Positions 38,094 to 63,373 of a stretch of DNA of 64,000 nucleotides are shown in pieces. This DNA comes from Tethya wilhelma (taxonomy: Eukaryota > Porifera > Demospongiae > Tethyida > Tethyidae). The stretch's first letter is position 1. Every line of letters begins with the position of its first letter. The stretch covers positions 4,801,121 through 4,865,120 of the forward strand of contig CAXIPT010000008.1 in assembly GCA_964030475.1 (NCBI GenBank). Direction: 5' to 3'. The translations under genes and the position numbers were made by a program. The notes below the pieces were generated by a model. The model was not told the DNA's origin and ran no database searches. It was given only the letters and a program-made list of their open reading frames with translations.

Positions 38094-38904
38094 CTAGGTT
38101 ACCATCAGGTGCTTGCTCATTCTCTGTATCAAGCAGGACCACTTTTTTGTTTAGACGATCTGTTTTTTCAGGTTGCTGCACGGCAAAATCCTTAGATTGG
38201 TTCATTTCAGTCAACTGTCTATTCACATCTGTGAGGACATCCAGTATTGATGTACCAGGGGATTTCATGATCGTTTCTGCCAGCAATCTAAGCCAAATTC
38301 CACCACTGCCGTCTTCATATGCTTTGTAGTTGGGCATTATAGAATAGGCCACCAGAAAATTGGCTCCTTCAGGCACCTTCAGCTGTTGCATTTGTGAGAG
38401 TCCTCGTGATAAAAATGGATCCTCACTGGCTGACTTTCCTCTTGGTACGAGAACAGTGTTCAATGTCTTTGAGCCACGGCAAGCATCAATAAAGAAGAGC
38501 TTTGGTATATTTCCCAGCTCTGTGCAGTGTTTGGGCAGCAGAGGATCAATGAGTTGATTGCTAATGTGGACCCTTTCGTGATCATACATGTAGACATAGT
38601 TATCAGTCGTGCCATGTCCAGAAAACACAAGAACAATGCATTTGTAATCTTTCAACTTCTTGTGTTTCAGATTCTTCACTTCATACATGATGAATTCCAG
38701 CCTCTTCTTGGTCACATTGTGCTCCCAGTGGACGACAAACTGCAAAGAAGTAAAAGTCTTTGAAAGGCTCTCTCCATCTTTCACTGTGCCAGGGAGCTCA
38801 TCCAGCTTTTGTGGAAATATTGGTGTTCCAATGTAGTCATTGGTGATGATGATGGCCAGCCCTTTGGCAGATGGATGTGAGTCAACTTCATGTGTCACTG
38901 ACAT
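38094..38904 (-). CDS. caspase-fold (C14) protease exon, probably the start of the Roco gene
   Basis: ATG 38904 opens a 270-residue protease domain: GLAIIITNDYIGT, catalytic His in VFSGHG, catalytic Cys in FIDACRG, and GGIWLRLL in the small-subunit half. No prodomain precedes it. It ends at a phase-1 donor (CTAG then GTGAGT). Splicing to 37488 adds a death domain and Roc-COR GTPase; splicing to the relic at 37609 would stop after about 17 residues. Its closest relative here is the protease at 59669-60482, with most residues identical. The S1-pocket Gln and Arg of caspases are replaced by Asp (of DACRG) and Glu (KAYED), as in paracaspases. Confidence 0.85.
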
Positions 38905-38961
38905 GGCAATGATGGCACGCTGTTGCTTTCCTTATGAAAATATACGCGCGCGAGGGAGGAG

Positions 38962-38976
38962 CCCCCCCCCCCCCCC
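38962..38976. repeat. poly(C) tract
   Basis: Fifteen consecutive C in the short gap between the caspase start codon and the next gene's end. Possible source of sequencing error. Confidence 0.9.
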
Positions 38977-39064
38977 TATATCCGCGAATAATACAAAAAA
39001 AACGTCACGATTTCATAACTATTCCCTATTATTATTTTATTACACGTGTCATTGTGTGTATACT

Positions 39065-39945
39065 TTACAACTGTACTTCTAATATCTTTTCAATTTTATC
39101 TGCTATATTAGCTTTACTATTATCCCGTAACAGTTCATTCAGAGTACGCCAAGTCATTGGTTTGACTCCATTGCCGTTTAGCCAGTGCTGGAACATCTTC
39201 TGACATCTATCCACTGGTGTCTTTAGTGTATCATCTGTTGCAAGCAACTCCACAAACTCTCCTGACTCATCAAAGTCCATGGAGATCCCAAACTGTTTCC
39301 ACTCTGGAGCTACCACCTTTATCACCGAGACCTCCTCTCCATTGCCTTTCAGTTTCAACAGCTGTGCCAATCTTGGCTTTTCTATGTAAATAAAATGTGA
39401 TTGAATCACTACTGTTGGTATTGACAATAGATGCATACCGTCTAACTGGCTTTTGAATTTTGCTCCTCCTCTTTCTCCTCCTCCTCCTCCAGGTGGTAAT
39501 GATCCACTTCCGTTTGAACCACCTACAGCAGCCCCAGGCTGTATGGCTGTATAAAGACACACAAGTCACACAGTGTATACATAAGCTGATCGTAGACTAC
39601 TTAATTACCTTTTGCACAGCGACACACTTTCTCTGCCAACTCAGCATTCTTCAACTTTAGGCACACACCTGTGAGGGTTCGATATGTTGCTTTGATCGAC
39701 GAACTTCTCTTCCATGCTTGTAACATGTTTAATTTTTTTTGTTGGTGTCCACGTGCATCTTCATCAATCCCATCCATCACAGCAGGAGAGAGACCAAGAT
39801 GAGCTCCAAACAGTTGCCAATCAGACAGTTCTAAAGCTATGTCACGAATGTGTTCACTGGTGCATTGTTGACCAAGTTGTTCATCAGTCACACCCACATA
39901 CTCCTTCATATCGTCTATTGTCATAGACATCTTTGTCTGTTGCAT
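39065..39945 (-). CDS. tandem death-domain protein with Gly-rich linker
   Basis: Exons 39609-39945, 39439-39546 and 39065-39381, all joined in phase 1, give about 253 residues from ATG 39945 (a second ATG lies at 39930). The first death domain includes LSDWQLFGAHLGLSP. The linker is Gly/Ser-rich, and the second death domain includes VVAPEWKQFGISMDFDESGE. This second domain is a close paralog of the terminal domain of the gene at 40409. A likely adaptor; no catalytic part. Confidence 0.78.
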
Positions 39946-40408
39946 GTGTGTATGGGTGTGCACATCAATTTTATGTTGTGTTTGTGAGCTATCACAGACT
40001 TAATTTACTATAAATTTATATTTATAGTTCCTCCTATTGTCTAGATAGTATCAGACTGTGCACAGGTTTATGTATATGCAAAAAGAGATTCATTAACAAC
40101 TGTAACAACCTGTTACCCACTTACCTCTGCTTGCTCTTGACTGGCGAGAGCTTTGGAACAAAAATGGCTGACAGGAAATTCAAATGTCATCAAAAATTCT
40201 TTCAAAGAGGAAATCATGTGATTGTGGTAATACTTGGTATTGGATGGTCACATGTGCCATAAAAGCATCACTGATTCAGCTAGCTATGAAATACTGCAAT
40301 AAATCCCACACATGTAGAAAAAACTTTTTTTATCATCAATCCAGTACACAATAATTGCAACTACATTCCACATATTACTAGACTACTATAAAGGTCAAGC
40401 TCTTTTAT
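39946..40408. other. intergenic, nothing recognised
   Basis: 460 bp between two minus-strand death-domain genes. No exon or repeat identified. Confidence 0.4.
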
Positions 40409-41334
40409 CTATGAAACTAATATTCTTGTAACTTTCTCTGCAAGATGTTTTTGGTCAAAATCGTCCAACAGTTCTATCAGTTTCTCCCAAGTGGCAGGAA
40501 CGCCATTTCCTTTCAACCAGTGCTGAAAGAGGGCCTGGCAGTAATCCTCAGGGCTCTTGAAGGTACAGTCTGCCTGGATTATGTCCAACTGTTCGCCAGA
40601 TTCATCAAAATCCAGCCGAGCACCGAAACGCTTCCAACCAGGAGCAACAACCTTGATGATTTCAGCCTCTTCTTCGTTTCCCTTCAGTTTCATTAGCTCA
40701 ACCAGTTTAGGCTTCTCTGGAGCACAAATATTAACAGATCAGGTTGTGACTTGAAATCAATGCGTGTACGTCTTGAACCACAAGGCATGTACATGTGTTA
40801 GCAAACATACATGTGCATGAATTGTAACGTACCACTGAGTCTGCTGTGACTGGCTGGTTGTGGGACTATGACAGCTGGTGATGATGGTTGTGATCTGAAT
40901 GGACTGACATAGGAGGGATCTTTGGTGCCTGTATAAAGTGTTAGGGAAAACAGTATTATTAAACACACAAATCCGAGATAAACTTTGGTTCACTTCTTAC
41001 GGCATTCATCAGCTAACTGTTGGGCAATGTCCTTCAACTCTAACTGATCGTGACAGAGAATAAGAAACTTGTTAAAGTTCTCTCTCCTCTTCTCTGGAGT
41101 TAGCGCAAGTTTGATAGCGGGGTCAACAGCAGAGAGGAGGTTGCAAATCTTGGTGTAGTTGGAAATCCCATTCGCGCTAGTCTTGTTATCTGCGATTCGT
41201 CTGGTCAAGAACTCATTCTGGACCAGCACGTTGGCGAACACACTAGGATCAGAGTTGTCCGTGATGTTGTCGATCAGCTTGGCGCTGAAGGACTGGAAGA
41301 CTTGATATTCGACAGAAAGACCTCCGTATGCCAT
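40409..41334 (-). CDS. CARD-like plus death-domain protein
   Basis: Exons 41001-41334, 40833-40928 and 40409-40716 (phase-1 joins) give about 245 residues. The first exon (MAYGGLSVEYQVFQSFSAKL, then a helical run ending IAQQLADECR) has the length and six-helix pattern of a CARD or related death fold, but the subtype is uncertain. A Pro/Ser-rich linker follows, then a death domain (VVAPGWKRFGARLDFDESGE). The architecture recalls RAIDD- or RIPK2-like adaptors that link a sensor to a protease; that role is inferred. Its ATG lies 72 bp from the divergent ATG at 41407. Confidence 0.75.
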
Positions 41335-41406
41335 GTTGTTTCGGGTTCGGGAAATCCCCCTTACCCTGGAGGTCAAAGTACAGTGATTTTCAACTTAGCA
41401 GCACTG
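41335..41406. promoter_or_regulatory. 72-bp bidirectional promoter
   Basis: Only 72 bp separate the start codons of the CARD-like/death gene (minus) and the triple-death gene (plus), so shared control is likely. No known motif is evident. Confidence 0.45.
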
Positions 41407-42084
41407 ATGTCAGGTAAGAGAATTGGTACTGAATTGACACTCATGGATGTTTTTTCTTGGCATTTTCAACAGCTGAAACTCGAGACCAACAAGCCTTAAG
41501 AATACTCAAACAGTATCCTGACTTAGATCCCACACAGCTGGGTATGTAACAGATGTATGTGTGTGAAGTTTCTTCACTGACTGATCACTCTTTTTCTCCC
41601 ATCAGGTCTAAAGGATTTGCCCTACATTAGAATTGCTATGGTCAATGTATCGGCACAATGGTACAACATTGGGGTTCATTTTGGCATATCCACGGACACT
41701 CTAGACGGCATTAGGACAAAGAACAATAAAGATACCGATAGATGTTTGACATACACGATAGCAGAGTGGCTCAAAAATTGGAAGCCAAAGTTTGGTGCTC
41801 CCTCGTGGAGAAGGGTGGTCATCATCGTTGCCTCAAGAGTCGGAGGAGACAACCCAGCAGAGGCAAGAAAGATTGCTGAGAATTACAAGAGTGAGTTAGG
41901 GGCATGGAGATTTTTTATTACACAATGGTATTGTAATTTCCGGTTGTTGTGTTGCCATTTTACTTTTTTTAAATGCACAATTCTTTGATTTAGGTTATGG
42001 AATTGACGGTTCCTTTCATGAAGCTGCAAACACTGAAAATAGATCACTGAGTAAGTGAAGCCACAATCAATTCACTATCTACAA

Positions 42085-42130
<46 letters not shown>

Positions 42131-43115
42131 CAGTAATACTGTAAGTCTCTGGACAAACTATACATTCAGCTTCAGAGTGTGAATATTTTCCTCTCTCTTA
42201 ATAGAATCAGATGACCAGCTGTATGTCACCCGAGCACTGATGGAAGGAGTGGCTGACAAGTGGATGTCAGTTGGTCTCCTTCTTGGTCTTCCTTACAAGA
42301 TCCTGCAGATCTGTGAGTTCTCTGACACTCTTGACGAGAAAGTCACTGGCATGGTGGAGGCTTGGCTTGCAAGGAAGTATGATGTTGAATCGTTTGGAGA
42401 TCCTTCTTGGAGAAAGCTGGTGGAAGTAGTGGCATCTCGAGCTGGAGGAAATCACCAGGCTCTGGCTGCAAAGATAGCAGGACAGCACCCCATTACGAAT
42501 GGTATGTAACCTTTTCAATATCGATCTGTTTGTTGTTTCAACTTTTGTGTGTCATTTCAGAGCCTGAGTATCATTCATCTGGTGCAGCTGTTAGGATGGA
42601 ATCAGTTGGAAGTCAATCATTGCCAAAACCTGCAGGTAAGATGTACGGAAACTTTCAAATTGATGAGAGTGTGAAATATATCTTGTTTGCAATCTCCCAT
42701 CCTGCAGATGTGCTGAGTGAGAGTGACCTAAAGATGCTGGTGAATGAACTCCGTGGCATTGCTTACAAGTGGATGGTGTTTGGCCAGCAGCTAGGACTCA
42801 CTATGGGAGAGCTACAGAACATCTCCGCCACCCCTATGCTTCTCTCTGGAGCTCCCGTTTCTTTCCTTCAACAAGTTTTGTACGTTTGGCTCAGTTTTGA
42901 GCCCCCCAACCACTCGTGGCCGACCATCACTGAGCTGTGTGAGGGACTCAGTAGCCCAGCAGTGGAAGAGGAGGTGCTGGCCTCTCAAGTGAGACAGAGA
43001 TTATCTCAACTGCAACAGAGAAGTGAGTGTATGTGTTGTTGCCTTTTTGGATTTCAAAATCAAAAATTATCATCCATATTTCTTATTTTATCTTGCAGAT
43101 CAAAGGCAGAGTTGA
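41407..43115 (+). CDS. triple death-domain protein
   Basis: Eight exons (41407-41413, 41473-41541, 41606-41890, 41994-42050, 42205-42501, 42561-42635, 42708-43022, 43099-43115) encode about 373 residues. Every intron is phase 1. The first coding exon is only seven bases (ATG TCA G). Death domains are recognised at VSAQWYNIGVHFGISTD, ADKWMSVGLLLGLPYK and AYKWMVFGQQLGLTMGEL. Short linker exons separate them. A CA microsatellite (42089-42127) lies in one intron. Probably a scaffold for death-fold complexes; nothing else can be assigned. Confidence 0.82.
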
Positions 43116-43295
43116 TAGTCAAGTGCTGTATCGACTAACTGTTACTGTGTAGTGTGTAGTCTGTGTCTGTGTCTTTGTGAAGTTGACAATTTTATATCCG
43201 CGCAAACCCATAATGTGGGCGTTGCAAAGTAAGATGCGCGAAAAAGATAAATTACGTTTTTAGGGAATTTCCCTATTTATCACAGCTGGACAACA

Positions 43296-44902
43296 ATGGA
43301 TGACCCCCAACTCAAATTTGTTTTAGACAAGTACCCAGTGGACTCCTCAATAAAGCTAGGTGAGAGACCATCATACAAGCATTATGTTGATAAATGATGA
43401 CTGTGTGTGTGTCTGTCTCTTAGGAGTGCAACACCTTGCCTTTGTGAGGGGTGCTATGATCAGCATGAGACACTGCTGGTACGACATTGGTGTTGAGTTT
43501 GAAATTGATACTGATGTACTGGACTACATCAGGAGCAAGCATAGGAATGATGGAGACGCCTGTCTCACTGACACCATTGCCACGTGGCTCAAGAATGCGT
43601 GAGTTAATTGAGAGATCTGCTGAGAGAAGTTATATGTAAATACTGTGCAAGTATATTTGTAGAGATCCATGGGACCAGTGTACGTATGATAAATTCTGGA
43701 CTATCTTCATTGTATGTAGGAAGCATCCTAACTTGAGGTCGATTGTGGTTGCTATAGGGAGTAAGTTTGGTGGTGGAAATCCTTCTGAAGCTGAGAAAGT
43801 TGCCAAACAATTTCGAAGTAAGACAGTCGATCAGCTACCTTGCGTGCTGATGACTTATTTTCCAATTTATAGATTCAGACGGGACTAATTTCCCAAGTGT
43901 GGTTCCAGAAGCAAATGGCGTAGATGATCAAGAATTGGGTGAGTTCAAATCTGATCTGTTTGTATCATTATTATGTAAGTAATGGCTATCCTTTTTTGTT
44001 ATCAAATCAGTCAAAAATGAGGAAAACCAAAAGAAGGTTTTCCAAGCACTCTCCCCTGTGGCTCACATGTGGAAGAAGGTTGGCATTTATCTTGGACTGG
44101 ATTACGATACCCTTCAGGTAGTGGAGAAAGAAGAGAAGCCATTGCAGTCAATGGTGAAGAAATGGCTCAAGAAAAAGTATGATGCATCAAAGTTTGGTCC
44201 TCCATCATGGAAGAAGCTGGTTGAAGCGATAGGATCAAAGGCAGGGGCTAATGATAGTGCCCATGCACTGGCCGTTGCAAAGCTTCACAAAGCTCCAATA
44301 AAAGGTGGGTAAATTGCATGACATGTAACTGATATGAGACAACAGTATTATGTATGTGCTGGATCAGAGTGACAGTTAGGAGATACATATGGGTGGAAGA
44401 ATGTAATACATAAACTAACTGACCATTTCCTTATGAAAGTTCAAAGTTCATTTCTCACTCTCCTTCATACATAGCTGATAGTACAGGAGCTATGGCAACT
44501 ACTGTGGGAGATATAGGTATGGACATGTAGAACTGTGTGATAGCAATGTCATATGGGTGTATATGCTCTCTCCTTTTAGACAGCACCCAGCTCTCTGATA
44601 GCCATCATTCTGATTTACTAATTGCTCTTCTAGATGTTGCTACTGATTGGAGAAATATAGGCACATTTCTTGGATTCAGAGATGGAGAACTTTCCAACAT
44701 CCAGGGTAACCCCATGCACTTGATGACTGGCAACCCAGCTATGAGTTGGTTGGGAGCCATGTTGACCACCTGGTACCAGTGGTCACCTGGAGATGGGAGA
44801 GGGAGTAAAGAGAAAGCCACCTTGGGAGCTCTAAAGAGGGCTTTGCTGAAGGCAAACCATGGAACTATAGCAGCAGACCTACACACAAAACTTCGCCTCT
44901 AG
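43296..44902 (+). CDS. triple death-domain protein
   Basis: Exons 43296-43359, 43424-43598, 43720-43817, 43873-43938, 44011-44304, 44475-44516 and 44580-44902 encode about 353 residues. The first death domain (CWYDIGVEFEIDTDVLDYI) is split by an intron. The second contains VAHMWKKVGIYLGLDYD, and the third contains VATDWRNIGTFLGF. It is a tandem relative of the preceding gene. The third domain exon is about 80 percent identical in protein to the death-domain exon of the Roco gene at 37144-37488, on the opposite strand. The stop is only 131 bp from the FPGT start. Confidence 0.82.
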
Positions 44903-45033
44903 CAAATCACTGTATATATTTTTATTCGTCAATGAAATTAATTTTTTGTAGCCTTTTTGTTGTTGTCAGTCCCACAGTCAGTAGTATAAATTAACTTCAA
45001 TTAGTGCCCACTTTGCTCTAATAATCCTGGAAG

Positions 45034-46532
45034 ATGGATCCTCTTGCGCTGGCTAAAGCTACTTCTTGGAAAATTGGACGATACCAACAAATTTTAAGGC
45101 AACCAGCAAAGGATTCTGAATTGTGAGTGAATGAATCACTAAAACGAGAAACTTTTGCAGCTAATTTTGTTTGTTGCACTCCCTGTCTTCTGCATGCAGG
45201 CCATTCTGGGACATAGTTTTAGTAACAGCTGGAGATGAAGAGCAGAGACTATGCTATGAAAAGCAAATAGACATCAAAGTAAAAAGAAAAGAGATACCAA
45301 CATTTGTCAAGTAATGATTGCCACAATTCAAATATTTTTCACAATTGAGACAAATTTACATGGATGTCCTTATTCCAGGTATCTTGTCATTGCTGATCTT
45401 CCTGGAGCTAAGATAGGCAATGGAGGGGCTACTATGCACGCATTTGAACAACTGGAGCAGATGCTAGGAGGCTGGGAGAAGCTGGAAAATTGTTAGGAAA
45501 AAATTCAACACTAATTTCTCTCACTCATAATATAAATTTTACATCTCTCTCTTTCATTCATAGCTAAGGTGTTGATGATCCACGCTGGTGGGTACAGTCA
45601 GAGGCTGCCCAGCGTTAGTGTGGTGGGCAAGGTGTTCATGGCTCTTCCATGTGGTCAGTAGTTTCATTCATTTGTGGCTATAAACAACTGGCATAGTTTT
45701 GGTCATACCTTAGGTGAACCAATGATGCACATGTTTGATGCTCTGCTCATGATGTACTGTGATCTTCCAGCAAGAATGGATGCTGGGGTAAGTTGGGACT
45801 CAAGAGTAGCTTGCTCAATCTCGGGCAGTGTGTTTGTATTAGCACCTCATTAGCTGCCACTTAGGCCTTCTTTGCTTCCCACTTAGTCAATATATACACA
45901 CAATTTCTGTGTGTGCTAACAACTGGTAATAATAGCAATGAGTGTAGACACTCGTTGGCTTTGTTTACTTTGTGCTTTTTACCTCATTTTCTTTCTTTGT
46001 CAGATATTCCTCACCTCGTCTGACGTCATCTTCTTGTACGACGGAAGTGGAGATTGGGACATGAAGCAGCCTGGTATCTCCGCCATTGCTCACCCCTCCT
46101 CCCTAAAGACTGCTACCTCACACGGCGTGTTTGTTCTAGAAGATGTTGAAAAGATCCAGAAGAAATATGAAGATGGTGAGCTAGTTGACTCAGCGGCTTG
46201 TAGCTAAATTTGGTCCAAAAATGAGTGCCCCTGTGGATATTAATATTGATTGATGTGACAGATCGTTCCAAACCATCTTCGATGGGGAAAGTGAGACAGT
46301 TTCTTCACAAGGTGTCCGTAGAGAGAATGAAGATAGCTGGTGCAATCATCCCGGGGAAAGAACAGGTGCTGTAATTTTATGAATTGAAGCTATAAAATTA
46401 TTAGTCACACGATCATTTTTTTTTTCTCTTGCAGGTGTATGTGGATTTGGCGTATACATTTGACATCCCTACTGTGAAAAAGATCACCAAGGTATGCAAC
46501 TGAAAGACTTTGAAAGTTTATATACTTTGAAT

Positions 46533-46594
<62 letters not shown>

Positions 46595-47483: not shown

Positions 47484-47516
<33 letters not shown>

Positions 47517-49657: not shown

Positions 49658-51154
49658 CTATATTGTGAGCTTCTGAAGATATTTAGTTGCTGCATCAAGT
49701 TCTGCATCTATCTTGGTTGCCTTGGGGTCTCCAGTGAGCCTACCAAATGCTCTTGCCACGTACAGAGTGCACTTGTACTTGCCATTCTTAAGCTCCTCCA
49801 CCTGAAACTGTGGTTTAGGCTTCTTCTCGTTCGTGCAGTAAGACTCTAACCTCTGCCTAGCATTGCCCCCCATGCCGCTGTGCTCTGCTGATATTGGCCT
49901 TGCAGCTGTAGCTGGTGATGGCTGTGACTTTTGTTTCCTCGTGGTAGGGTCCGATTGTGGTCTACCTAGCTGTGTTGCTTTACTGGCTGCTGTAGTCTTG
50001 CTGATCTTCTTGGGACAGGGAGGTGTGCTGCTCTTCCCTGCACTTGCTCCAGCTGCACTGGTCTTACTGGTGACAGATGCCTTCTTTGAAGTACTTGGAC
50101 TCTTTGCAGATTTCTTTGTCTTTGCTGCAGTTGGTGTTTCTTTGGTTGGCCCAGTTTTTGCTAATTATAGGAAAGAAAACAATTCTTGTTCACTTATCAG
50201 ATTGGTCGGTTTAATTATATGCTTACATTTGCTTGCAGCAGTCTTTGCTTTGCTTCTTCCAACTCCTTCTTCACTTTCTGCATCTGAATCTGTAGGAAAA
50301 GAAATAGATGAGTTGTGCTAGGTATTATTGATTCACATGGGAACTGAATATGTTTGCCAACCTGAATGTGTTGCTGTCTCTCCTCTGGCCTTTAGTGCTT
50401 CATGTCGCAGGTTTACTACGTCATTTAACCTGGAGACAAACTCAGGCTGTTGGATAACACCCCTGTATATCTCACTCTGGTACTTTGTGACCAATTCCTT
50501 ATTCACTTCCGTTAAGATATCGCAAACAGATTTGTTTTTGGTGCACAACTTTTCGGCCAGAGATGTGATCCATATTCCACCCTTTTTGGTATCTTCATAC
50601 GATTTATACTCAGGAAGAGTCGAATATGCTATTAGAAAGTTCCCTTTTTGTGGCACCTTGAGGGTATCAAGCACTCTTGACCCCTTTGGGACCATGGTAC
50701 CAGGATTGGCAGCATCACCACGGCATGCATCAATGAAGAAAAGCTTTGGTATGTTCCCAATCACTGGAGCCCTTACTGGATCAAAGGGAGCGATAATCTC
50801 TTCCACTTTGACTGACTTTGAGTCGTTGGTATAGAGAATCTGTCCTCTTGCTCCATGGCCTGAGAAGACTATTACGATTCTCTTATAGGAGGGTGGATAG
50901 CGGGTGAAGCTAGCGATGAATGAAACAATATCCAGCATGCCTTTTCTGCTAGCATTTTTTTCATAGTGAGTGGTGAAGTTTAGGCTCTCAAAGCATTTTT
51001 TCATCTTGTTGCCATCTTCAATAGTGCCACTGAGCTCTTTTAGGCTGCTCTCTACACTGCTGGCAGGAGTTTGATAGTCATTTGAGAATATGACCGCAAT
51101 CCCATTAGCAATGGGTTGGCTTTGTATCTTCCTGGATATTAGTCCTGATGCCAT
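49658..51154 (-). CDS. caspase-fold protease with C-terminal dsRBD
   Basis: Exons 50362-51154, 50227-50289 and 49658-50160 give about 452 residues, all joins phase 1. The protease part has GIAVIFSNDYQT, VFSGHG (His) and FIDACRG (Cys), with GGIWITSLAEKL in the small-subunit half. A Lys/Ser/Thr-rich linker follows. The C-terminal 65 residues form a dsRBD-like fold (RQRLESYCTNEKKPKPQF, then KCTLYVARAFGR, then DAELDAATKYLQ). Binding of dsRNA could bring the protease domains together, as dsRBDs do in PKR; that role is inferred. S1-pocket positions read Asp (DACRG) and Glu (KSYED), as in paracaspases. A 3'-truncated copy lies at 51876-53051. Confidence 0.88.
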
Positions 51155-51660
51155 TGTCCTTGCAATAACAGAGTACTACTAGCGGTCTATGATAGAACTA
51201 ATAGTTTTCAGAAGTATTATGCATAAACTCACTGAATCCAGATCCAAAGTTCACTTAAATAAACTCTCTAAACTATTGTGGCAGGGCTCAGTAGTGATAA
51301 GATTGCAAAATAAAATCCCTTCTGTTGGAGAATTTGGTTTTCCACAGACCACGTGGAATTATTCCTCGTAACTTAACTAAGGGAAGCGTAACTTTGCTAA
51401 GGGGAGTGTATTGATGTGAGCATGAGTAGGACCACATATACTCTTGTGGTGAACCATGCATAGTACTTTCCAGTAGCTCAGGTTATTCCATCAAATTTTA
51501 TCTTTATCGTGAATACAGTTGAACAAAATTAGCTAGAATTTTACTGAATGATATGAAGTGGATACTTGTACATTGATCATTATGAGTGATGACTTTAAAA
51601 GAACCTGTGGTACTGTAAAACATGCACATGACTGTTAAAATTGATGTATGTATAGTCTCA

Positions 51661-51945
51661 TCACAGACTCTCTTTTAGTTCCCACCTCCTATCATTTGGC
51701 ACATGACAATTGTTGCGGTGACAGAAGCTGTTTCTTATCTCTCTCAGAGACTTCACTGCATGCCATTGGGGTGTGCATAAGTGGAGTTCAAGCTGCTTGA
51801 TAGAAAACTGTCTTGAATTAAGAACAGCACAGGTGTCCCTCTCTCTGTAGATTGGAATTTTGATGATCATCTTCTTCAAACCATTACGAGAGTTAGTGTG
51901 TGTGACAAAGTTTGAATGGAAGAGAAGTCTGTTCTTTGTGCCGAG
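51661..51945 (-). pseudogene. duplicated 3' end of the HEPN-like gene
   Basis: Identical to 53558-53842, the last 95 codons of the HEPN-like gene, without its 5' part. Part of the 1,897-bp duplication. Confidence 0.85.
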
Positions 51946-53051
51946 AATTCTGCACTGGTCTTACTGGTGACAGATGCCTTCTTTGAAGTACTTGGACTCT
52001 TTGCAGATTTCTTTGTCTTTGCTGCAGTTGGTGTTTCTTTGGTTGGCCCAGTTTTTGCTAATTATAGGAAAGAAAACAATTCTTGTTCACTTATCAGATT
52101 GGTCGGTTTAATTATATGCTTACATTTGCTTGCAGCAGTCTTTGCTTTGCTTCTTCCAACTCCTTCTTCACTTTCTGCATCTGAATCTGTAGGAAAAGAA
52201 ATAGATGAGTTGTGCTAGGTATTATTGATTCACATGGGAACTGAATATGTTTGCCAACCTGAATGTGTTGCTGTCTCTCCTCTGGCCTTTAGTGCTTCAT
52301 GTCGCAGGTTTACTACGTCATTTAACCTGGAGACAAACTCAGGCTGTTGGATAACACCCCTGTATATCTCACTCTGGTACTTTGTGACCAATTCCTTATT
52401 CACTTCCGTTAAGATATCGCAAACAGATTTGTTTTTGGTGCACAACTTTTCGGCCAGAGATGTGATCCATATTCCACCCTTTTTGGTATCTTCATACGAT
52501 TTATACTCAGGAAGAGTCGAATATGCTATTAGAAAGTTCCCTTTTTGTGGCACCTTGAGGGTATCAAGCACTCTTGACCCCTTTGGGACCATGGTACCAG
52601 GATTGGCAGCATCACCACGGCATGCATCAATGAAGAAAAGCTTTGGTATGTTCCCAATCACTGGAGCCCTTACTGGATCAAAGGGAGCGATAATCTCTTC
52701 CACTTTGACTGACTTTGAGTCGTTGGTATAGAGAATCTGTCCTCTTGCTCCATGGCCTGAGAAGACTATTACGATTCTCTTATAGGAGGGTGGATAGCGG
52801 GTGAAGCTAGCGATGAATGAAACAATATCCAGCATGCCTTTTCTGCTAGCATTTTTTTCATAGTGAGTGGTGAAGTTTAGGCTCTCAAAGCATTTTTTCA
52901 TCTTGTTGCCATCTTCAATAGTGCCACTGAGCTCTTTTAGGCTGCTCTCTACACTGCTGGCAGGAGTTTGATAGTCATTTGAGAATATGACCGCAATCCC
53001 ATTAGCAATGGGTTGGCTTTGTATCTTCCTGGATATTAGTCCTGATGCCAT
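51876..53051 (-). CDS. caspase-fold protease copy lacking the dsRBD
   Basis: The second copy of the caspase-dsRBD gene: exons 52259-53051, 52124-52186 and a truncated last exon 51876-52057. Its protease domain is identical to the first copy. The duplication breakpoint cuts the linker after VTSKTSA. Translation then runs into HEPN-gene sequence in another frame and stops at 51876-51878, so the product (about 345 residues) has no dsRNA-binding part. If the duplication is real this is a sensor-less protease; if not, it is an artefact. Confidence 0.7.
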
Positions 53052-53557
53052 TGTCCTTGCAATAACAGAGTACTACTAGCGGTCTATGATAGAACTAATA
53101 GTTTTCAGAAGTATTATGCATAAACTCACTGAATCCAGATCCAAAGTTCACTTAAATAAACTCTCTAAACTATTGTGGCAGGGCTCAGTAGTGATAAGAT
53201 TGCAAAATAAAATCCCTTCTGTTGGAGAATTTGGTTTTCCACAGACCACGTGGAATTATTCCTCGTAACTTAACTAAGGGAAGCGTAACTTTGCTAAGGG
53301 GAGTGTATTGATGTGAGCATGAGTAGGACCACATATACTCTTGTGGTGAACCATGCATAGTACTTTCCAGTAGCTCAGGTTATTCCATCAAATTTTATCT
53401 TTATCGTGAATACAGTTGAACAAAATTAGCTAGAATTTTACTGAATGATATGAAGTGGATACTTGTACATTGATCATTATGAGTGATGACTTTAAAAGAA
53501 CCTGTGGTACTGTAAAACATGCACATGACTGTTAAAATTGATGTATGTATAGTCTCA
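53052..53557. other. intergenic, inside the duplicated unit
   Basis: Same sequence as 51155-51660. It should carry the promoter of the protease copy and the 3' flank of the HEPN-like gene. Nothing else recognised. Confidence 0.4.
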
Positions 53558-54439
53558 TCACAGACTCTCTTTTAGTTCCCACCTCCTATCATTTGGCACA
53601 TGACAATTGTTGCGGTGACAGAAGCTGTTTCTTATCTCTCTCAGAGACTTCACTGCATGCCATTGGGGTGTGCATAAGTGGAGTTCAAGCTGCTTGATAG
53701 AAAACTGTCTTGAATTAAGAACAGCACAGGTGTCCCTCTCTCTGTAGATTGGAATTTTGATGATCATCTTCTTCAAACCATTACGAGAGTTAGTGTGTGT
53801 GACAAAGTTTGAATGGAAGAGAAGTCTGTTCTTTGTGCCGAGAATGAGACGTATTTCATCTTCATAGGTTGGTAGTGGGTTGCGATATCCTACAATAAGT
53901 TCTTTATACTTTAAAACAGCTTTCTTCTTTACCGTCACTCCTTGAGAGAAATCAATCTTTAAAACTCGAGTCAGAATTCTTGAATTGAGAAGGATTTTTG
54001 CCAACAGTGTGGTATCCCAGTGTGTCATGTCGCTTTGTTCAATTTTGCTTTTATCCATTCGATTTAGATGGGGTTTTAGCCATCCTTCATGTAGTAGCAT
54101 TTCCAATCCATTTACTTTGGATGTTTTGTGTTTGCGTCGGAATTCGTCTCTGAGTGTGATTCGAAGAATCTTTGGTACGTGCCCAAAGATGGTTTGGTGT
54201 AAAAGGTAGATCTTGTCTTTGGGAGTGAGCAGGGACATTACAATGGTTTGCCAGGTTGCCTGGTTCATGCAAAAATACTGATAATGAGCATTCAAAAATG
54301 AACTATTTCCCCAAGGCAAAATGTGTGCATCTCCCTGAGGCAGCATCTTCACCATTGTGAGATTGTGCAAGTCAGAGTCAGGCAGGGTTGACCTGAGATC
54401 TATCTGATTGCAATGGTCTTTGGGAAACAGACTAAGCAT
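53558..54439 (-). CDS. possible HEPN-domain (DZIP3-like) protein
   Basis: A single 293-residue exon from ATG 54439. All-helical, with segments WDTTLLAKILLNSR and EIRLILGTKNRLLFHS, and near the end SLREIRNSFCHRNN. The last contains R-x4-H (RNSFCH), the usual HEPN ribonuclease-like motif, in the typical L-R-x-x-R-N context of the DZIP3-type HEPN family. HEPN proteins often cleave RNA in defence or regulate other immune domains. The assignment rests on motif spacing only, so the protein may be something else. Its 3' end is duplicated at 51661-51945. Confidence 0.45.
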   Translation of the reverse strand: MLSLFPKDHCNQIDLRSTLPDSDLHNLTMVKMLPQGDAHILPWGNSSFLNAHYQYFCMNQATWQTIVMSLLTPKDKIYLLHQTIFGHVPKILRITLRDEFRRKHKTSKVNGLEMLLHEGWLKPHLNRMDKSKIEQSDMTHWDTTLLAKILLNSRILTRVLKIDFSQGVTVKKKAVLKYKELIVGYRNPLPTYEDEIRLILGTKNRLLFHSNFVTHTNSRNGLKKMIIKIPIYRERDTCAVLNSRQFSIKQLELHLCTPQWHAVKSLREIRNSFCHRNNCHVPNDRRWELKESL

Positions 54440-54577: not shown

Positions 54578-54820
54578 ATGATAATCATCATCCCAATCGG
54601 GCTCATAGTGGACCTCTGTTGCTACTGCATCCGATGCTGTGTAAGAAGTTGTGAAGACTGCGCCGCCGAGCGCCAAGCCGAACGTGCTGCTAGAGTTGGA
54701 CCAGATGAAACGGTTGTTCGCGTTGTTCGTACTCTGCCAAACGGCCAAAGACGAGTGGAACTTTACAAAGTAAAAAAGGACCAGTTAGAAGCACACAGAC
54801 AACAGTATGGCTCTACTTAA
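54578..54820 (+). CDS. small single-pass membrane protein
   Basis: 80 residues from ATG 54578. A hydrophobic helix (MIIIIPIGLIVDLCC) runs into a Cys-rich juxtamembrane stretch (CYCIRCC) and a basic, charged tail. An in-frame ATG at 54461 exists, but it lies 21 bp from the divergent HEPN-gene ATG. The start at 54578 is preferred because the neighbour at 55305 begins with the same motif. Function unknown; the Cys cluster could be palmitoylated. Confidence 0.5.
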   Translation: MIIIIPIGLIVDLCCYCIRCCVRSCEDCAAERQAERAARVGPDETVVRVVRTLPNGQRRVELYKVKKDQLEAHRQQYGST

Positions 54821-55304
54821 CTATGTGACCATGGTGTGGCTCTGCGCAGCATGCAGCGCAGAAACTTGAGAACGTTTTTTACATTTTGTTTTGTCGACCC
54901 CTACCATCTATTTAATTCCAGGTTTCTACCATAGATATATACTACCTAATTTTGTTGTGTGTCCTAATATTTATGCATTGCCTTGCATAAGGAGTTTACA
55001 TATCTGGCATGAGTTCTTCTGCACATATACTATATCTATGATAAGTACGTACAGATATTGCTACATGGTGAACTTTGATACTCCAGCTCCCCTGCATGGA
55101 GTTGTTTTGGCATTCCAAGAATGTTATACATTGTTTCAGTTCCCATATTACTGTATGTATAGTCACCTAGGAAAACAATATATCAGTTTCCTTATTGCAA
55201 AGAATTCTTTAATCACTGGCAGCCACACTAAAAGCCTGGTGCGACTCATTGATAGCTAGCTAGCTGACTAGTAGTATAGTGCAGGCCTCAGTGACTGTAT
55301 AGTG
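54821..55304. other. intergenic between two small membrane genes
   Basis: No exon, repeat or known element seen. Confidence 0.35.
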
Positions 55305-55679
55305 ATGATTGTTTTCATTCCTATTGGTTTGATAGCAAGTCTCTTTTCTGCCTGTGCAAAAAGTGCCCAGCAAAGAGAAGAACCACGAGCAGTCCGGTAT
55401 CAAGTGGTCCAACAACCAGCAGCACCACGTGCTCCGAGTCATTCCCGGGTGCCACCAATGAATGGTCGACAACAAGCTCAGTATCGAGTCCTGCCACCTC
55501 ATCAGCAGGTGGTAGTTCAACCACAACAATATCAATATGTTCCTGCTCAGACTCAGCCAGTGTCTGGTTCCCAGCAATCCACACCCCCTCCTGCTCAGGG
55601 CCGGCCTAAGAGGAGAAGGATATGGCAGCGTAGATCCAAAGGTGGATACTCATACTACGAACAGGGCCAGACTGAGTGA
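55305..55679 (+). CDS. small membrane protein with Pro/Gln-rich tail
   Basis: 124 residues from ATG 55305 (GTG at 55302 rejected). The start MIVFIPIGLIASLFS parallels the helix of the protein at 54578, suggesting a diverged tandem pair. The rest is Gln/Pro-rich with a basic cluster (PKRRRIWQRRSK) near the end and Tyr residues after it. Unrecognised. The tail could bind SH3 or WW domains, but that is only composition. Confidence 0.5.
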   Translation: MIVFIPIGLIASLFSACAKSAQQREEPRAVRYQVVQQPAAPRAPSHSRVPPMNGRQQAQYRVLPPHQQVVVQPQQYQYVPAQTQPVSGSQQSTPPPAQGRPKRRRIWQRRSKGGYSYYEQGQTE

Positions 55680-55899
55680 TATGTTATGTGCACTCAGATT
55701 TGCAGCAAACATGTCAACACAGTACTGTGTATGTAAAACTCCTGACAAATAACTTGTGATAATTATAAGTCTGTGTCAGTGTGTACTGGATAAGTATATA
55801 GAAGTTATTGTGTGTAGTATCATGCATTATTACAACTACATAGGCTATTGTATAATTATACAGATCAACAACTATTAAATTTCACGTCAATTTAACAAA

Positions 55900-57565
55900 C
55901 TAGTGAAGCATATCGAGAATCTTCTTTGCTGCACTGTGTTTAGCATCTTTTTTGTTTCCTTTTACTCCCCCTTCCTCCTCCAAGATTTCTACACCATCTC
56001 TTTTTATGACAACTGTGTACTGAAAGTTCTGTTTTCCAGGTTGTGTATTCTCTTTATAGTGAGGTTTTTCTAGCCCTATTCCACTGTGGCTTTGACAGTA
56101 TTCCTGTAGGCGTGATACTGCTGACTTGCCTGGATCACCAGACTCTTGTGGCAGTGACAGATTCCTAGCCAATGAGCTGCCGGATTTGCCTCGAGAGGTC
56201 ATGCTAGGCTTATCAATGAGACCTATCAGTATAATTTATTGCACAGTTGCATATACCACAATGAGTATACATGACTGTGTGATTTGTAATGCATGTCAAC
56301 AAACCTTGCTTTTCAAGAAATTCCACTGCAGCTTTTGCAGCATTTCCTTTTGCCAAGTTGACTGTTTTTTCTGGCTTGTCTCCAGTGAAACTCTCTTCTT
56401 TACCAGTTGCTTTAACAGTGAATTTGATCCTAACAGTGAATGTCCCATCTCCAAATTTAATGGGTGGGTCATCAAACTTAGGTTTTGATATTATATCCTT
56501 TTGAAAGGCTTTGTTTAGAGAGTTCTGTTCTGTAACATACTTATCACCAGCAGATTTTGGTGTCATCCCCAGTCCTGTATATAGGGCATGTATGGAAAGA
56601 AGTATTGTAACAATCGTTACTCTGTTTTGTACAGTAAATGTCGAGGATTTCTTTACAATACCTGATGCTATTGGTACACTTGGCTGAGACCACTGCCTGC
56701 TTGTTGCTGCTGCAGCAGTTTCTATCTTTGGCGGTTGAGGCATAAGATGTACAATGCCAATTCTGCTGATGTATTCTGGCTGGGTCATGGCTCTCTCGTA
56801 TGCAGAATCTTGATATTTTTCTTTCAACCTTTCGTGAACCGTTGCTAGAATATCTGTAATGGTTGTTGTAGCAGCTTTCTCACGAATCACCTTAGACAAT
56901 TCTCCCAACCAAATTCCTCCTTTATGTTTGACTTCAAAGGACTGGTAGTTTTCCATCGTTGAGTACGCAATGAGAATGTTGCTCTCAGGAGGCACTTTCA
57001 GACGTTCCATTTCTCTTCCACCCTTTTGGTGTATGCTAGCACTAGTGCTGTGAACGGCTCCTCCACTTTTAGGCACAGTAATTGCTTCTGGGAACATCTC
57101 TTCTTCACCTCGGCAAGCATCAATGAAGAACAGTTTCGGAATATTGCCTATTGTCGGAGCAGCTCTTGGGAAGAATTGTGATACAATATCTGAAACAGGA
57201 ATCTTATTACAGCTTCGATCATACACAAAGCTGGGTACAGGTTGAGGGTCATCATCTGCACCACAACCACCATGACCGGAAAATACGAAGCATATATTTT
57301 TGTAGCTCTCTGGATACTTCACTGATCGTGTTGCTTCATGGATGGTCGTCTGTAGCTGGTCAATGGTGACATTGTGTTGGTGTACAGTAGCAAATCCGAT
57401 GCTTTCGAAAGTGGTTTTCATCATTTGTCCATCTTTGTGTGTTCCTGTCAGTTCTTCAAGACTGGTTCCACGATAGTCATTGGAGATGATGATGGCAAGA
57501 CCATTTGCTTGAGGGTTTCTTCCAATAGCACCTTCTACTAGTCCTAGAGTAGCAGGAGACGCCAT
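55900..57565 (-). CDS. caspase-fold protease with two dsRBDs
   Basis: Exons 56662-57565, 56305-56574 and 55900-56222 (all phase 1) give about 498 residues. The intron 56575-56661 is a multiple of three and stop-free, so it also reads through. The protease domain shows GLAIIISNDYRGT, VFSGHGG and FIDACRGEE, with QSFEVKHKGGIW after it. The first dsRBD ends KGNAAKAAVEFLEK. The second ends KKDAKHSAAKKILDML, whose Lys residues match the RNA-contacting third region of dsRBDs. Likely a dsRNA-responsive protease. S1 positions are Asp and Glu, not Gln and Arg. Confidence 0.88.
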
Positions 57566-58085
57566 GATAAGTTGAATCAGTCATGAAAGTCACAAAAAAG
57601 CAGCTATTTATAGCACAACTTTGCATGCAGTGCAGAATTAAAGACAACTCCCAGTTGCCAAGCCACCCATGGTTGTTTTTAAATACCATAATTATTATTA
57701 CATGTTGTGTATAACCTGGTAGATATACCAGGGGATTTTTGTAGTAACAAGATAATATTATTCATGATGATTGAATTTAGTAATATTGTTTTCTTGGAAG
57801 GGACTATTCCTTGCATGCATGCATGGATACATGTGAATCCAAGAAATGTGCTACGTTGTACATGTGGTCATATCACAATAAAAATGATCATCTTGGCCTT
57901 TTACAACAATGCATGATACAGCACATTCTCTAGCTGTACTAGCAAATGATAAGAACTCAAACAAACCATGATTATGTTCACACAAACTTAGGGGAATCAC
58001 ATCTCCACTAAACCACACACAAACACAATCACAAAGCATGCCCAGCACATGATAGTTCCTTATTCTTCACCCACAAATAATATTA
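57566..58085. other. intergenic, nothing recognised
   Basis: 520 bp between the two caspase-dsRBD genes. No exon found. Confidence 0.4.
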
Positions 58086-60482
58086 TTATTGTTCTAGTAT
58101 CTTGAGAGCTCTTTGTGCAGCATTTTGTTCAGCATCTTTCTTACTGTCACAGACGTCACCTGTCACTCCATGTCTGAGATCACTAGTGGACACTGTTGAC
58201 TGGAATCGTCCCAGTGCAACTTCAAGTGTCTTGTATTCGATGAGAGCATTTGGTTGTCTTTGTTTATCGTAAAACTCCTTCAGTTTAGACTTCCAGAGTT
58301 TATCCTGAGGGGTTGTGTTCCTTCCACGAGCCACCATCTCCACCTTGCCTCCTTTCGTCTCCTTGTTCAGGACTTTCCTAGCAGCAATCTCCTTTGCTTC
58401 TCCCTTGCTGTTGTAGTAGCCTCCACTGTCCACTCTCTCTGTCTTTCCGTTCATGAAGTACTTGATGGTGCAGCGATATAGTGACTGGCCTCCGGTGTTG
58501 TCCGATACGTAGTCAAACTGTGGAGTGATTCGCTTAGTTTGGAAGAATTGGTTGAGTTGTTCTCTGCAACTGCCACTTGGAGGTGCACCCCTGCCACTGA
58601 CTACAGTGTGTGTGTGTGTGTGTGTGATACAGACCATATAAGCGAATAATAGGACACACACACACGTGCATACAGATGGAGCAATACATTTCAAAACAAC
58701 AAATTTACCTTGTAATTGTGATTGAGGGTTTCTCTGTTGCGGGAGAGAGGGTGCAGGAACACTTGCCACATTGTAGCTAGGTCTAGTGTAGCTCTGTTGG
58801 GCCATTGGACTGGCAGCAGCTGCCTGGGACTGTTGTGGATACAGCTGTTGAGGTGATGTGTTCACAGTACCAACAGGGTTGTGAACTGGAGTAGGCCATT
58901 GTTGATTCTGAGAATGAGCACCTCCTTTACAAACAAACATACAGTCAGTAAGGGAGTACTCTATCGTGTGGAACAAGTAAGGGCCTATTGAGACTCACCA
59001 TTGCACTGCTGCTGCTGAGAGTGCCATTGTACCTGTGCAATCCTTTCACAGGCATTCTTAGCTGCTTCTTCCAGAGAGAGTGCTGGTGAGTTGTAATACT
59101 TTCGGCTGTCTTCAGTAATGGTGTCTCCATTTTGTAAGTAAACTCTCACTCCACTCTTGAAGTACATTTGCTTATGCTCCGTTGAATAAAAGTCCACAGT
59201 CTCATAGTTTGGTGGAATTGTGCAATAGTTGCATGCAAACTGGCTCAGCATTGCTTGGTACTTTGGAAGGTTAGGTTGCACTGGCTGTTGCAAGTTGCCT
59301 ATGCACAAATTGAACAATATAAACTGTTAGTCATTACATGATATGTACTATAGGTACCTTGAGGTGGAGTGTGGTGTTGCTGACCATGCGGCAGTGCCCA
59401 CTGTCCTTGGCTGTTTGTTGCTGGTGATGGTGTTTGTTGGCTGGCAGTTGGTGTAGAGTACACATGTGGTTGGAGATGGGGGTTCCCCATCAGCATTCCA
59501 GTCGGCTGTGGTAGGTGACTACTACTACTACCACCAGGGAACACCGCAGCAATATTGATGGGTTTTCTTTTCGGTGAATTAATACTTGGTGTGACTTCAT
59601 CTGAAAGCATGAAAACAGCAAAAGGATTAGTCATGATCATGCAATTTAGCTACCTACAGTTACCTCACCTAGATCAATAACAGACGCTTGCCCATTCTCT
59701 GTATCAAGCAGGACCACTTTTTTATTGAGACGATCTGTTTTTTCAGGTTGCTGCACAGCAAAATCCTTAGATTGGTTCATTTCAGTCAACTGTCTATTCA
59801 CATCTGTGAGGACATCCAGTATTGACGTATCGGGGGATTTCATGATCGTTTCTGCCAGTAATCTGAGCCAAATTCCACCACTGCCATCTTCATATGCTTT
59901 ATAGTCGGGCATTGTAGAATAGGCCACTAGGAAATTGGCTCCTTCCGGTACCTTCAGCTGCTGCATTTGTGAGAGTCCTCGTGACGAAAATGGATCCTCA
60001 CTGGCTGACTTTCCTCTTGGTACAAGAACAGTGCTCAATGTCTTTGAGCCACGGCAAGCATCAATAAAGAAGAGCTTTGGTATGTTTCCCAGCTCTGTGC
60101 AGTGTTTGGGCAGCAGAGGATCAATGAGTTGATTGCTAATGTGGACCCTTTCACGATCATACATGTAGACATAGTTATCAGTCGTGCCATGTCCAGAGAA
60201 CACAAGAACAATGCATTTGTAATCTTTCAACTTCTTGTGTTTCAGATTCTTCACTTCATACATGATGAATTCCAGCCTCTTCTTGGTCACATTGTGCTCC
60301 CAGTGGATGACAAACTGCAAAGAAGTAAAAGTCTTGCTGAGGTTCTCTCCATCTTTCACTGTGCCAGGGAGCTCATCTAGCTTCTGTGGCCATGGTGGAG
60401 TTCCAATGTAGTCATTGGTGATGATGATGGCCAGCCCTTTGGCAGATGGATGCGATTCAACTTCTCTTGTCACCGACACCAT
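58086..60482 (-). CDS. caspase-fold protease with three dsRBDs
   Basis: Exons 59669-60482, 59358-59600, 58999-59298, 58709-58924 and 58086-58600 give about 695 residues, every join phase 1. ATG 60482 (MVSVT) is preferred over 60521 because the paralog at 38904 starts MSVTHEV. The protease has VFSGHG and FIDACRG. A Pro/Gln-rich exon precedes a first, divergent dsRBD (YYNSPALSLEEAAKNACERI). A second Gln-rich exon follows, then two dsRBDs (YNSKGEAKEIAARKVL; SKKDAEQNAAQRALKIL). The two Gln-rich spacers are separate exons. It is the source copy for the protease exon at 38094 and the relic at 37557. Confidence 0.88.
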
Positions 60483-60697
60483 CAAGAAAAGATAGGCGTG
60501 CTCAGTGCCACGATTGGCCACTGGTGACTTTTATACAGGGCTGGTGCAGCCTGCACACGTGGCAAATATTTAGACCATACAATATTCATAAGTTCACTAA
60601 TAAAACTCCACTCAATTATTAATAACCACAACATCAAAACATACCACAGTACCAATTATGATATTCATAGTATTTTTAACAAACATGCTGCTATTAA

Positions 60698-63373
60698 TTA
60701 AGGTAGAGCACCAAGTGTCTTGAGAGCATTGTAAGCTGCACTATGTTCAGCTGCTGATTTACTAGGACACTCTTTCTCTCCCTCTTCCATACCAATCACT
60801 GGACAGTAGACAGTAGCAGTGAAACGACCTGTCTTTGGATTCTCTTTGTGTTTGTAATTAATGTTTGGGTTCTTTTTCAACTTCTTTTCTAAGTGTTCCT
60901 TCAGTCTTTGCTTCCATATTTTAGCTGTTGGAGACTCCTTTTTCCTTGATTGTGGACTGGCAGAAGAAGGAGGCTCTTTCACCATAGAGCCCGGTCCAGT
61001 GTGTTTGCCTGTGTTACTATCCCTGAGGGTAGACTCTGAACCTAAAAGTTTAGTGAGCACATCAGGGTAAATTTGTGATCAATAATATTATGTGTTATAC
61101 ATTCGCACATACCTCTTCCTTTTTGACCTTTTGTAAGTGCATCAATTTGTTCAAAAGCATCTCTTGCAGCATCTTCCTTAGCTGCACCTTTGCTAGACAG
61201 GTATCGACTCGTCCCAAGTATTTTTCTCTGTGTGGCCACATGCTTCAGAGAAAGATAACTCTGATACAATATTCTGTTGCTCTCATGTTTTTCTATAAAA
61301 TCATGGTCATGATAGTCAGTGATAATACCAGTCTGTTGGAAGTGGTTCAGGAGACCTCTGTAGTACCCTTGTTCATTGCCACCTTGCAAGCTTGCCTGAC
61401 TTGGAACTGCACAAAGAATTTTTGGGGGGTAGAAACTCTTAAAAGTCATACAAAACCAGATAGAAGTACTATACAGACAGAGATAATAACATCACATACT
61501 ACGATGCTTAGTAATAGTTGGTTCGCTGTGTTGCTTTTGGTAGCCCATAGCCTGTGACTGTCTCATAGCAAACTGTGTTGGACCAGTACCTAATGCATTG
61601 TGGATCTTATAATTTTTTGACATAGAGTATTGCAAATTGCCCATACCTTGTGGATCACTAGGGTAGCGTTGGTAATCTTGGCCAATAGGCTGTGGAACAT
61701 TGGGTGATAAACTTGGAGCATAAGAGGTGGCTCCACCGTGACCCTGCTGTTGTAAGTCATGATGGGAGGCAGGGGTAGCAGCAGCTGCAATATATACAAC
61801 AAGAACAATGACTTCATTCATCAAAATTAGAGAACATCCATTATTCCCTCGATAAAGTGATTCATTGTTGACACTACTCACCATGAAGAAATGTGGAATT
61901 CCCAGAACAAACATTTGCTGAGTCTGATAACATCATGCGGGTCTCCCCATTTTGCATCGTCATACCACTGTGTTGAGAGTACTGGCCATGGGGATGCTGA
62001 TATGTGCCATGATACTGTGCAGGTGGTACCAAGGAAAGGCCTACAGTTTCATTGACTGGCCTAGGTGTAGCAGCAAAATCTAGAGTGCCAAGACAAAACA
62101 TTAAAATTGCTTCTGTTTCAAGTATATATATGTATTAGCTAATCACTATTACTTTCAATAAATGCCTGTTCACTAGTGTTTACTCCTTCGAGTTCCACTT
62201 GCTGAGGTAGCATGTTTGGCCACACAGAGCTGAGTGAAAAGGATCAGTAACAAAAATTAATTTACCACATGTCATTGGGCACACCTAATTAGCTGGGAAA
62301 GGCCCACTGACCAGATAACTTAATGTATAAACAAGACTATCTGACAACCAAAATATTCTTACCCCTGATGGTTGTTAGCCATACCAAAGTCTTGCACAGG
62401 CAACATTTGAGAGGGAGGTAGACCTGTGGGTTGTTGTTTCAGCTGTACATGTAACAGACATGCTGGATCAGTAAAGTAACACCCCTTTTCTGGATGATTC
62501 TCTGCAGTGCAACAAATTAATCATTTATTTTCAGTGCCAAGTGCTAACTGTCATGGTACTTGGCTTGTACTTACCAATGTATACTGCTTCCTTTAGGAGT
62601 TTCACAGGATCTCCAATTAATGTCGACTCAAGAACAGGTTGCTGCAAACTCTTGAATCCTGCCCTTTGCATTTTATCAATCAACTTTTTGTTCACTTTCC
62701 CAAGAACATCGTGCACTGACATATCAAAATTTTCAAGAAGACAGATTTGCCAGGCCAGCTCTTGTGTCCAAAACCCTCCATTAAGATTTTCAAATGATTT
62801 CTTTGTAGGTAAAGTTGAGCATGCCAGGAGATAGTTTCCAGCGCTAGTCGTACGTTCCCCATCGTCTCCTCCACCTCTTGCACGGAATTGCTGAATTCTA
62901 ACTCCTTCGTCTGTTCCACTTCCACGACAGGTGTCTAGGAAAAAGAACTTCGAAACTTTTGCTAAATGAGGGGACTTTTGGGGGAGAAATGGAGGATACA
63001 CTTCTTCATGAAGATTCACTGCTCCATCATGTGTGTAAATGGAAGTGCCATCCCCATGTCCAGAGAAGTAGAACACCAGCCTACCATATGCAGTTTGATC
63101 AGGTACATTTGGGTATTGTATGCTAACAGCTGCCTGTATGACTTTAATGAGCTCATCTTTTGATGGATTCAGTACCGGAACTGCAGTAAATTTTAGCCTC
63201 TCAAATGTATACTTCATTGTATCAAGATCCTTTCTAGCTCCTGGTAGGTGCTTGTGATCAGCCTTCATACCATGCTCACAGGCAACAATGATTGCTAGCC
63301 CATTAGCAACTGGCTTCCTACTCACAGCATCTTGGAGTTCACGAAACATAGTCCATTCTGAAGGCTCTCCCAT
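60698..63373 (-). CDS. caspase-fold protease with two dsRBDs and Gln-rich spacer
   Basis: Exons 62575-63373, 62363-62501, 62153-62229, 61882-62079, 61647-61784, 61500-61589, 61113-61406 and 60698-61041 give about 692 residues. The protease is the most divergent here: GLAIIVACEHG, FYFSGHGD and FLDTCRG (Thr before the catalytic Cys), with KKSFENLNGGFW. Four spacer exons are His/Gln/Pro-rich. The first dsRBD includes SKGAAKEDAARDAF, and the second includes SKSAAEHSAAYNALKTL. The 57-bp intron 61590-61646 is in frame and stop-free, so its retention would add 19 residues. One intron is phase 2, the rest phase 1. Confidence 0.85.

Follow-up and report, generated by a model that had tools for sequence, protein, structure and literature searches.

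Caspase-type proteases of a sponge gene cluster with a predicted MALT1-type S1 pocket and, behind several of them, double-stranded RNA-binding domains

How caspases acquired their strictness for Asp from Arg-cutting relatives is, to our knowledge, an open question, and a cluster of protease genes in the sponge Tethya wilhelma bears on it: after which residue do these enzymes cut, and what might set them in action? The cluster lies within a stretch of 64,000 nucleotides (the window; G000:C8:4801121-4865120) of an assembly of 124.6 Mb in 204 contigs. From 38 to 63.4 kb of the window, the minus strand carries six complete open frames of the Peptidase C14 type, assigned to genes A to F (Table 1). 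They amount to five distinct sequences, one pair (D and E) being identical in DNA; another pair (F and B) is 90% identical in protein. Scores against the Peptidase C14 profile (PF00656) ranged from 89 to 125 bits in all five window proteins scanned, the curated cut-off being 21.4 bits. Beyond gene G, incomplete in the window, an eighth member of the family (L017) lies on another contig. We place at about 0.7 the probability that the cluster encodes caspase-type C14 proteases, complete in their active sites, which have a MALT1-type S1 pocket, cut after Arg or Lys and are assembled on double-stranded RNA (dsRNA).

Conservation was scored in a family set of 127 sequences, made up of the five from the window, two others from the same genome and 120 relatives (the best 120 of 504 matches, all of which entered the pocket counts); the copy in gene D (52233), a duplicate of gene E, was excluded. 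The set of ordinary caspases used for comparison comprised the best 120 of 464 relatives of the genome's own caspase and includes sequences from Geodia barretti, Ephydatia muelleri and a goby. The catalytic His is present in 126 of the 127 family members and the catalytic Cys in all of them.

The original prediction was that the S1 pocket of these enzymes resembles that of paracaspases and not that of caspases. The motifs on which it was based are all in place: DACRG or DTCRG, the latter in the gene A frame (62534-63412), together with KAYE (38083 and 59649), KSYE (50336 and its copy), QSFE (56216) or KSFE (62534). The four protease domains counted at that time correspond to four motif types, spread over the five distinct sequences. 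Alignments with caspase-7 and MALT1 bring the motifs to the QAC and WR places of caspases, and in all six window domains the pocket Gln of caspases has become Asp and the pocket Arg has become Glu. The stretch from FLxAYST to GxW aligns without gaps with caspase-7 (AYSTVPGYYSWR), represented by PDB entry 4hq0/4hqr, a structure listed as a mutant. HMMER, unaided, matched the AFE of MALT1 (E500) to the YE of the family and paired D365 of MALT1 with the Asp of alpha-1 in the family.

Throughout the family set the position of the caspase Gln is occupied by Asp (127/127). At the caspase Arg position (R233 of caspase-7) Glu is found in 109 sequences, Asp in 16, Leu in one (L017) and Lys in one (P0040). 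A further pocket Arg of caspases (R87 of caspase-7), which had gone unnoticed earlier, is also lost: no family member has it, and Leu (118), Pro (5), Ile (3) or Gln (1) is found instead. Thus, S1 reads Leu/Asp/Glu in the family and Arg/Gln/Arg in caspases (C14A, for example caspase-7 and caspase-8), the three caspase residues being kept in 115, 117 and 120, respectively, of the 120 ordinary relatives. The acidic pocket of MALT1 (D365, D462 and E500) is matched by D60 (127/127), D157 (127/127) and E/D214 (125/127). With conservation in 125-127 of 127 sequences, a chance likeness of short motifs was ruled out. The charge of the pocket is opposite to that in caspases, and cleavage would therefore be expected after Arg or Lys instead of after Asp. 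As a prediction from sequence, such a basic P1 specificity is well supported; the paracaspase-like character originally proposed for the pocket is likewise supported.

Another pocket variant was found on contig C4 (0.91-1.06 Mb), where a cluster of caspase-like genes (L006-L012) replaces the pocket Gln by Ser (SACR, STCR, SCCR) and retains the last pocket Arg.

Caspases cut themselves in the linker that follows the catalytic Cys. For this loop, 116 of the 120 caspases were used, four being dropped that had no recognisable Cys motif. A site of the caspase type, [VI]xxD[SGA], occurs in 91 of the 116 caspases and in one of the 127 family members, whereas VP[KR] at the same loop occurs in 76 family members and in no caspase; with both sets thinned to less than 60% identity, the latter figures become 36/55 and 0/35. 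The looser pattern V-x-V-x-[KR] is found in 100 of 127 and 8 of 116 sequences, respectively, against shuffled expectations of 16.0 and 7.3. The basic residue of the family lies mostly 13 residues past the Cys, the caspase Asp 14 residues past it. An exact LVPRG is present in nine of the 127, and genes B and F read TVLVPRG. The same sequence, LVPR-G, is a substrate site of MALT1: Regnase is reported to be cleaved at LVPR111-GGS (PMC6237847), and in another report the fastest MALT1 peptide ended in LVPR and the preference for Gly at P1' was fairly strict (PMC6207715). In the AlphaFold2 model of gene B (mean predicted local distance difference test score, pLDDT, 85.7), confidence falls at the motif from 84 (residues 161-170) to 49 (171-180), as in an exposed loop. 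The loop appears to agree independently with the pocket, the charge differing between family and caspases in both places, a pattern that looks like a joint change of enzyme and substrate.

By fold and profile the family domain is of the caspase type, not of the MALT1 type: the family profile gave 122 bits with caspase-7 and 113 with caspase-8, compared with 25 for MALT1, 21 for L016 (a MALT1-like gene of the same genome) and 6.8 for a yeast metacaspase fragment. MALT1 was not among the best 60 of 253 PDB rows nor among the 50 structural entries listed, a result that is uninformative on fold. A first tree of 71 rows, built after deletion of the pocket columns, included 24 family relatives, 11 caspase relatives, and L018 with six of its eight relatives. 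In it, 29 vertebrate, insect and sponge caspases (we take PDB entry 3sir to be a fly caspase) formed a branch without the family (support 100/99); the family adjoined this branch (family plus caspases, 96/92), and MALT1 and metacaspase fell outside. The caspase branch again formed without the family (99/97) in a second tree of 64 rows, seven rows having been dropped. The family thus appears to stand outside the sampled caspases, the place of MALT1 differing between the two trees. With MALT1 (C14B) it shares the D365/D462/E500-type pocket and a Gly before the catalytic His; this Gly is also present in yeast metacaspase and is not found in the caspase rows. Most likely, the family kept an older C14 pocket suited to cutting after basic residues and diverged before animal caspases evolved their Asp pocket. 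A caspase domain with the older pocket, outside the sampled caspases, would offer a place to test the origin of Asp specificity.

Genes A, B, C and E have dsRNA-binding domains (dsRBDs; dsrm, PF00035, curated cut-off 23 bits) behind the protease. The window cluster accounts for four of the genome's 18 dsrm matches listed. The tail of gene C was modelled with core blocks of pLDDT 85-93, and its top Foldseek rows were dsRBDs (best E 2.5e-3), pointing to a dsRBD fold; the second dsRBD of this gene keeps KKxAK, which we take to be a dsRBD motif. Two relatives, P0029 and P0055, have C14 and dsrm matches over the cut-off in one frame. The joining of several proteases to dsRBD-type domains suggests that RNA may act through them as the trigger of an immune or death switch. 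PKR and OAS likewise couple a dsRNA-binding part to an effector enzyme and are analogous in idea, the effector in the family being a protease; we know of no dsRNA-binding effector with a protease.

We infer that the proteases are activated by dsRNA. The dsRBDs would gather copies on dsRNA, viral or endogenous, whereupon the protease domains could dimerise, as caspases and MALT1 do. Paired proteases would then cut their own linkers after VP[RK], and the active enzyme would cut other proteins after basic residues, possibly leading to an antiviral or cell-death response. The specificity step (Arg/Lys) rests on pocket residues seen in the sequence. Were the dsRBDs to act as sensor, dsRNA would be linked to a protease directly, without adaptor proteins. 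A more far-reaching version, to which we would give something short of even odds, makes the family a pre-caspase relic in sponges with the ancestral Arg/Lys pocket, a dsRNA sensor in one polypeptide that cuts itself at LVPR-G and then its targets. If true, the family would be at once an extant intermediate on the way to caspase specificity and a protease switched on by dsRNA.

Part of the evidence weighs against dsRNA-assembled, Arg/Lys-specific proteases of this kind. The looser loop motif is missing in 27 of the 127 family members, genes A and G included. L017, with Leu in the pocket, is without the motif yet has Lys at the same distance from the Cys; because of this Lys, loop and pocket do not track each other strictly within the family. 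In P0040, with Lys in the pocket, the basic loop residue is lost and Gln is found there. Behind gene D no dsRBD match was obtained, the dsRBD of gene E scores below the cut-off, and the dsRBD region of gene F is apparently truncated, a remnant similar to gene B being found at 37565-37623. Ten of the 11 long relatives (at least 341 amino acids; P0053 left out) were scanned: two have dsrm over the cut-off, two below it (P0032, P0112) and six none. A simple GT-AG search served to propose introns; it offers candidate splices only between the proteases of genes A, B and E and their dsRBD exons. In the trees, the unity of the family itself is moderate (85/89 in the first, 93/64 in the second), and the approximately unbiased (AU) test did not reject a grouping of the family with L018 and its relatives (p 0.261).

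It is conceivable, though on balance unlikely, that the pocket does accept basic P1 residues while the VP[KR] motif, which could have a structural role, is not cut, and the dsRBDs function in localisation or in binding other proteins and not in sensing dsRNA. In general, dsRBDs often mediate protein contacts, and the rows matching the gene C tail include the DCL4 dsRBD2-DRB4 and RPAP3-TRBP complexes. One family member, P0091, has GEG in place of GHG; it has therefore lost the catalytic His and is probably catalytically dead. This reading is harder to reconcile with the conservation of His and Cys in the rest of the family, with the KKxAK of gene C, with a loop residue whose charge changes with the pocket between family and caspases, and with the drop in model confidence at the motif.

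The family might also consist of ordinary paracaspases of sponges, either MALT1 orthologues or members of type 2, so that such a pocket would be expected; we consider this a rather poor prospect. Type 2 paracaspases were reportedly defined by Hulpiau et al. 2016. One paper, citing earlier work, describes them as a paracaspase domain alone and records them in porifera, placozoa and ctenophora (PMC5978004); on that account, Arg-type C14 proteases are already known in sponges under this name. Predicted Arg specificity and occurrence in Porifera are common to them and the present family, and the two are set apart by description only, several family members having dsRBDs, beyond the type 2 definition. 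The trees give this explanation some room: the second moves MALT1 beside the family (81/69), and in the AU test a clade of family plus MALT1 was not rejected (p 0.186). Against it stand the profile scores, in favour of caspase-7, and two separate MALT1-like genes of the same genome, L016 and L020, which group with human MALT1 (99/89, from partial sequences). Orthology to MALT1 is thus not favoured, the AU result for the joint clade notwithstanding. The family also differs from MALT1 in its dsRBDs, and in MALT1 cleavage of the corresponding loop is reportedly dispensable for activity (PMC4357240). Type 1 paracaspases carry death and immunoglobulin (Ig) domains ahead of the protease; no Ig or death match was obtained in the five protease frames scanned, the upstream exons not having been searched. 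Least probable is the view that true sponge caspases have secondarily flipped their pocket charge: fold and sequence are caspase-like overall, but the family falls outside the sampled caspases, its nesting among sponge caspases is weakly rejected (AU p 0.0305), and the Gly before the catalytic His is absent from the caspase rows.

Metacaspases and orthocaspases have basic P1 specificity and an Asp before the catalytic Cys in common with the family; they read DSCHSG where the family reads DACRG. A search bearing on bacterial origin, confined to two family peptide patterns run against the genome_contigs collection, returned 35 pattern matches, none a confirmed relative. In titles and the opening lines of abstracts, with subscription literature mostly outside reach, neither a sponge caspase of the Arg type or with fused dsRBDs nor a caspase-type domain with such a pocket, a self-cleavage loop to match or attached dsRBDs was found.

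The MALT1-like exons (DCCR, LDMCR) lie at L016:569-1012 (minus) and 1351-1581 and at L020:197-934. A frame upstream in L016 looks Ig-like by eye; if confirmed, it would extend type 1-like paracaspases beyond the cnidarians and bilaterians. A further C14 group, represented by L018:594-1547 (minus) and P0241-P0248, has FDCCR or FDTCR with GHG, and most of its members lack an acid where the family has Glu; the seven rows used formed a branch of their own (97/97).

Table 1. Features of the protease cluster, in window coordinates.
Feature	Position	Strand	Remarks
Gene G, 3' end of seventh family gene, DTCRG type	63882..64000	-	crosses right window edge (L013:403-1224)
Gene A, C14 protease, DTCRG / KSFE	62531..63373	-	open frame 62531-63412; Pfam Peptidase_C14 4.2e-25; first Met 63373; without VP[KR] loop motif
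Gene A, weak dsRBD-like stretch between protease and dsRBD	61147..61287	-	own dsRBD profile E 0.006; no Pfam match
Gene A, dsRBD behind protease frame	60713..60916	-	PF00035 over cut-off
Gene B, C14 protease, DACRG / KAYE	59646..60482	-	open frame 59646-60530; Pfam 5.6e-35; first Met 60482
Gene B, pocket Asp, D157 of frame	60060..60062	-	corresponds to caspase-7 Q184, MALT1 D462
Gene B, Arg172 in TVLVPRG, proposed self-cleavage P1	60015..60017	-	place of caspase intersubunit Asp
Gene B, pocket Glu, E214 of frame	59889..59891	-	corresponds to caspase-7 R233, MALT1 E500
Gene B, dsRBD	58362..58559	-	PF00035 over cut-off
Gene B, second confident dsRBD	58095..58295	-	PF00035 over cut-off
Gene C, C14 protease, DACRG / QSFE, plus dsRBD-fold tail, one open frame	56213..57565	-	open frame 56213-57580; Pfam C14 9.3e-33
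Gene C, dsRBD-fold tail in protease frame	~56312-56515	-	fold match only; no Pfam dsrm match
Gene C, second dsRBD, next frame	55909..56121	-	PF00035 3.9e-12, over cut-off
Gene D, C14 protease, tandem copy identical to gene E	52230..53051	-	open frame 52230-53072
Gene E, C14 protease, DACRG / KSYE, linker GTMVPKG	50333..51154	-	open frame 50333-51175; Pfam 5e-36
Gene E, dsRBD behind protease frame	49664..49870	-	PF00035 E 0.0007, 20.6 bits, below cut-off 23
Gene F, C14 protease, DACRG / KAYE, linker TVLVPRG	38080..38904	-	open frame 38080-38931; Pfam 9.3e-34

Genes D and E lie within a tandem duplication of about 1.9 kb, identical in DNA (50053-51948 and 51950-53845), which is either very recent or an assembly artefact. 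The dsRBD exon is missing from gene D. Behind gene G, at 63701-63827, a 39-base tandem repeat encodes on the minus strand a 13-residue repeat that includes VGVQTE, presumably resembling a site for dynein light chain LC8.

The neighbouring genes fit an immune or cell-death locus. Of two death-domain frames at 39-40 kb, one passes the Pfam cut-off and the other narrowly misses it, and a Roc-COR-like frame with matches below the cut-off spans 34.5-37.1 kb. In gene F, between 38094 and 37490, AACCTAG is followed by a GTGAGT donor, and a TTTCAG acceptor precedes an exon of death-domain-like sequence; since the two are in apparently matching phase, the dsRBDs of this gene may have given way to a death domain or to a protein of the Roc-COR-death type. 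At most 20 kb to the left of the window (G000:C8:4786129-4798416; L014, L015) there are apparently three multi-exon genes for ordinary caspases, with RxGT, SWR and, in one, QACRG, accompanied by death-domain-like frames that resemble the pair at 39-40 kb.
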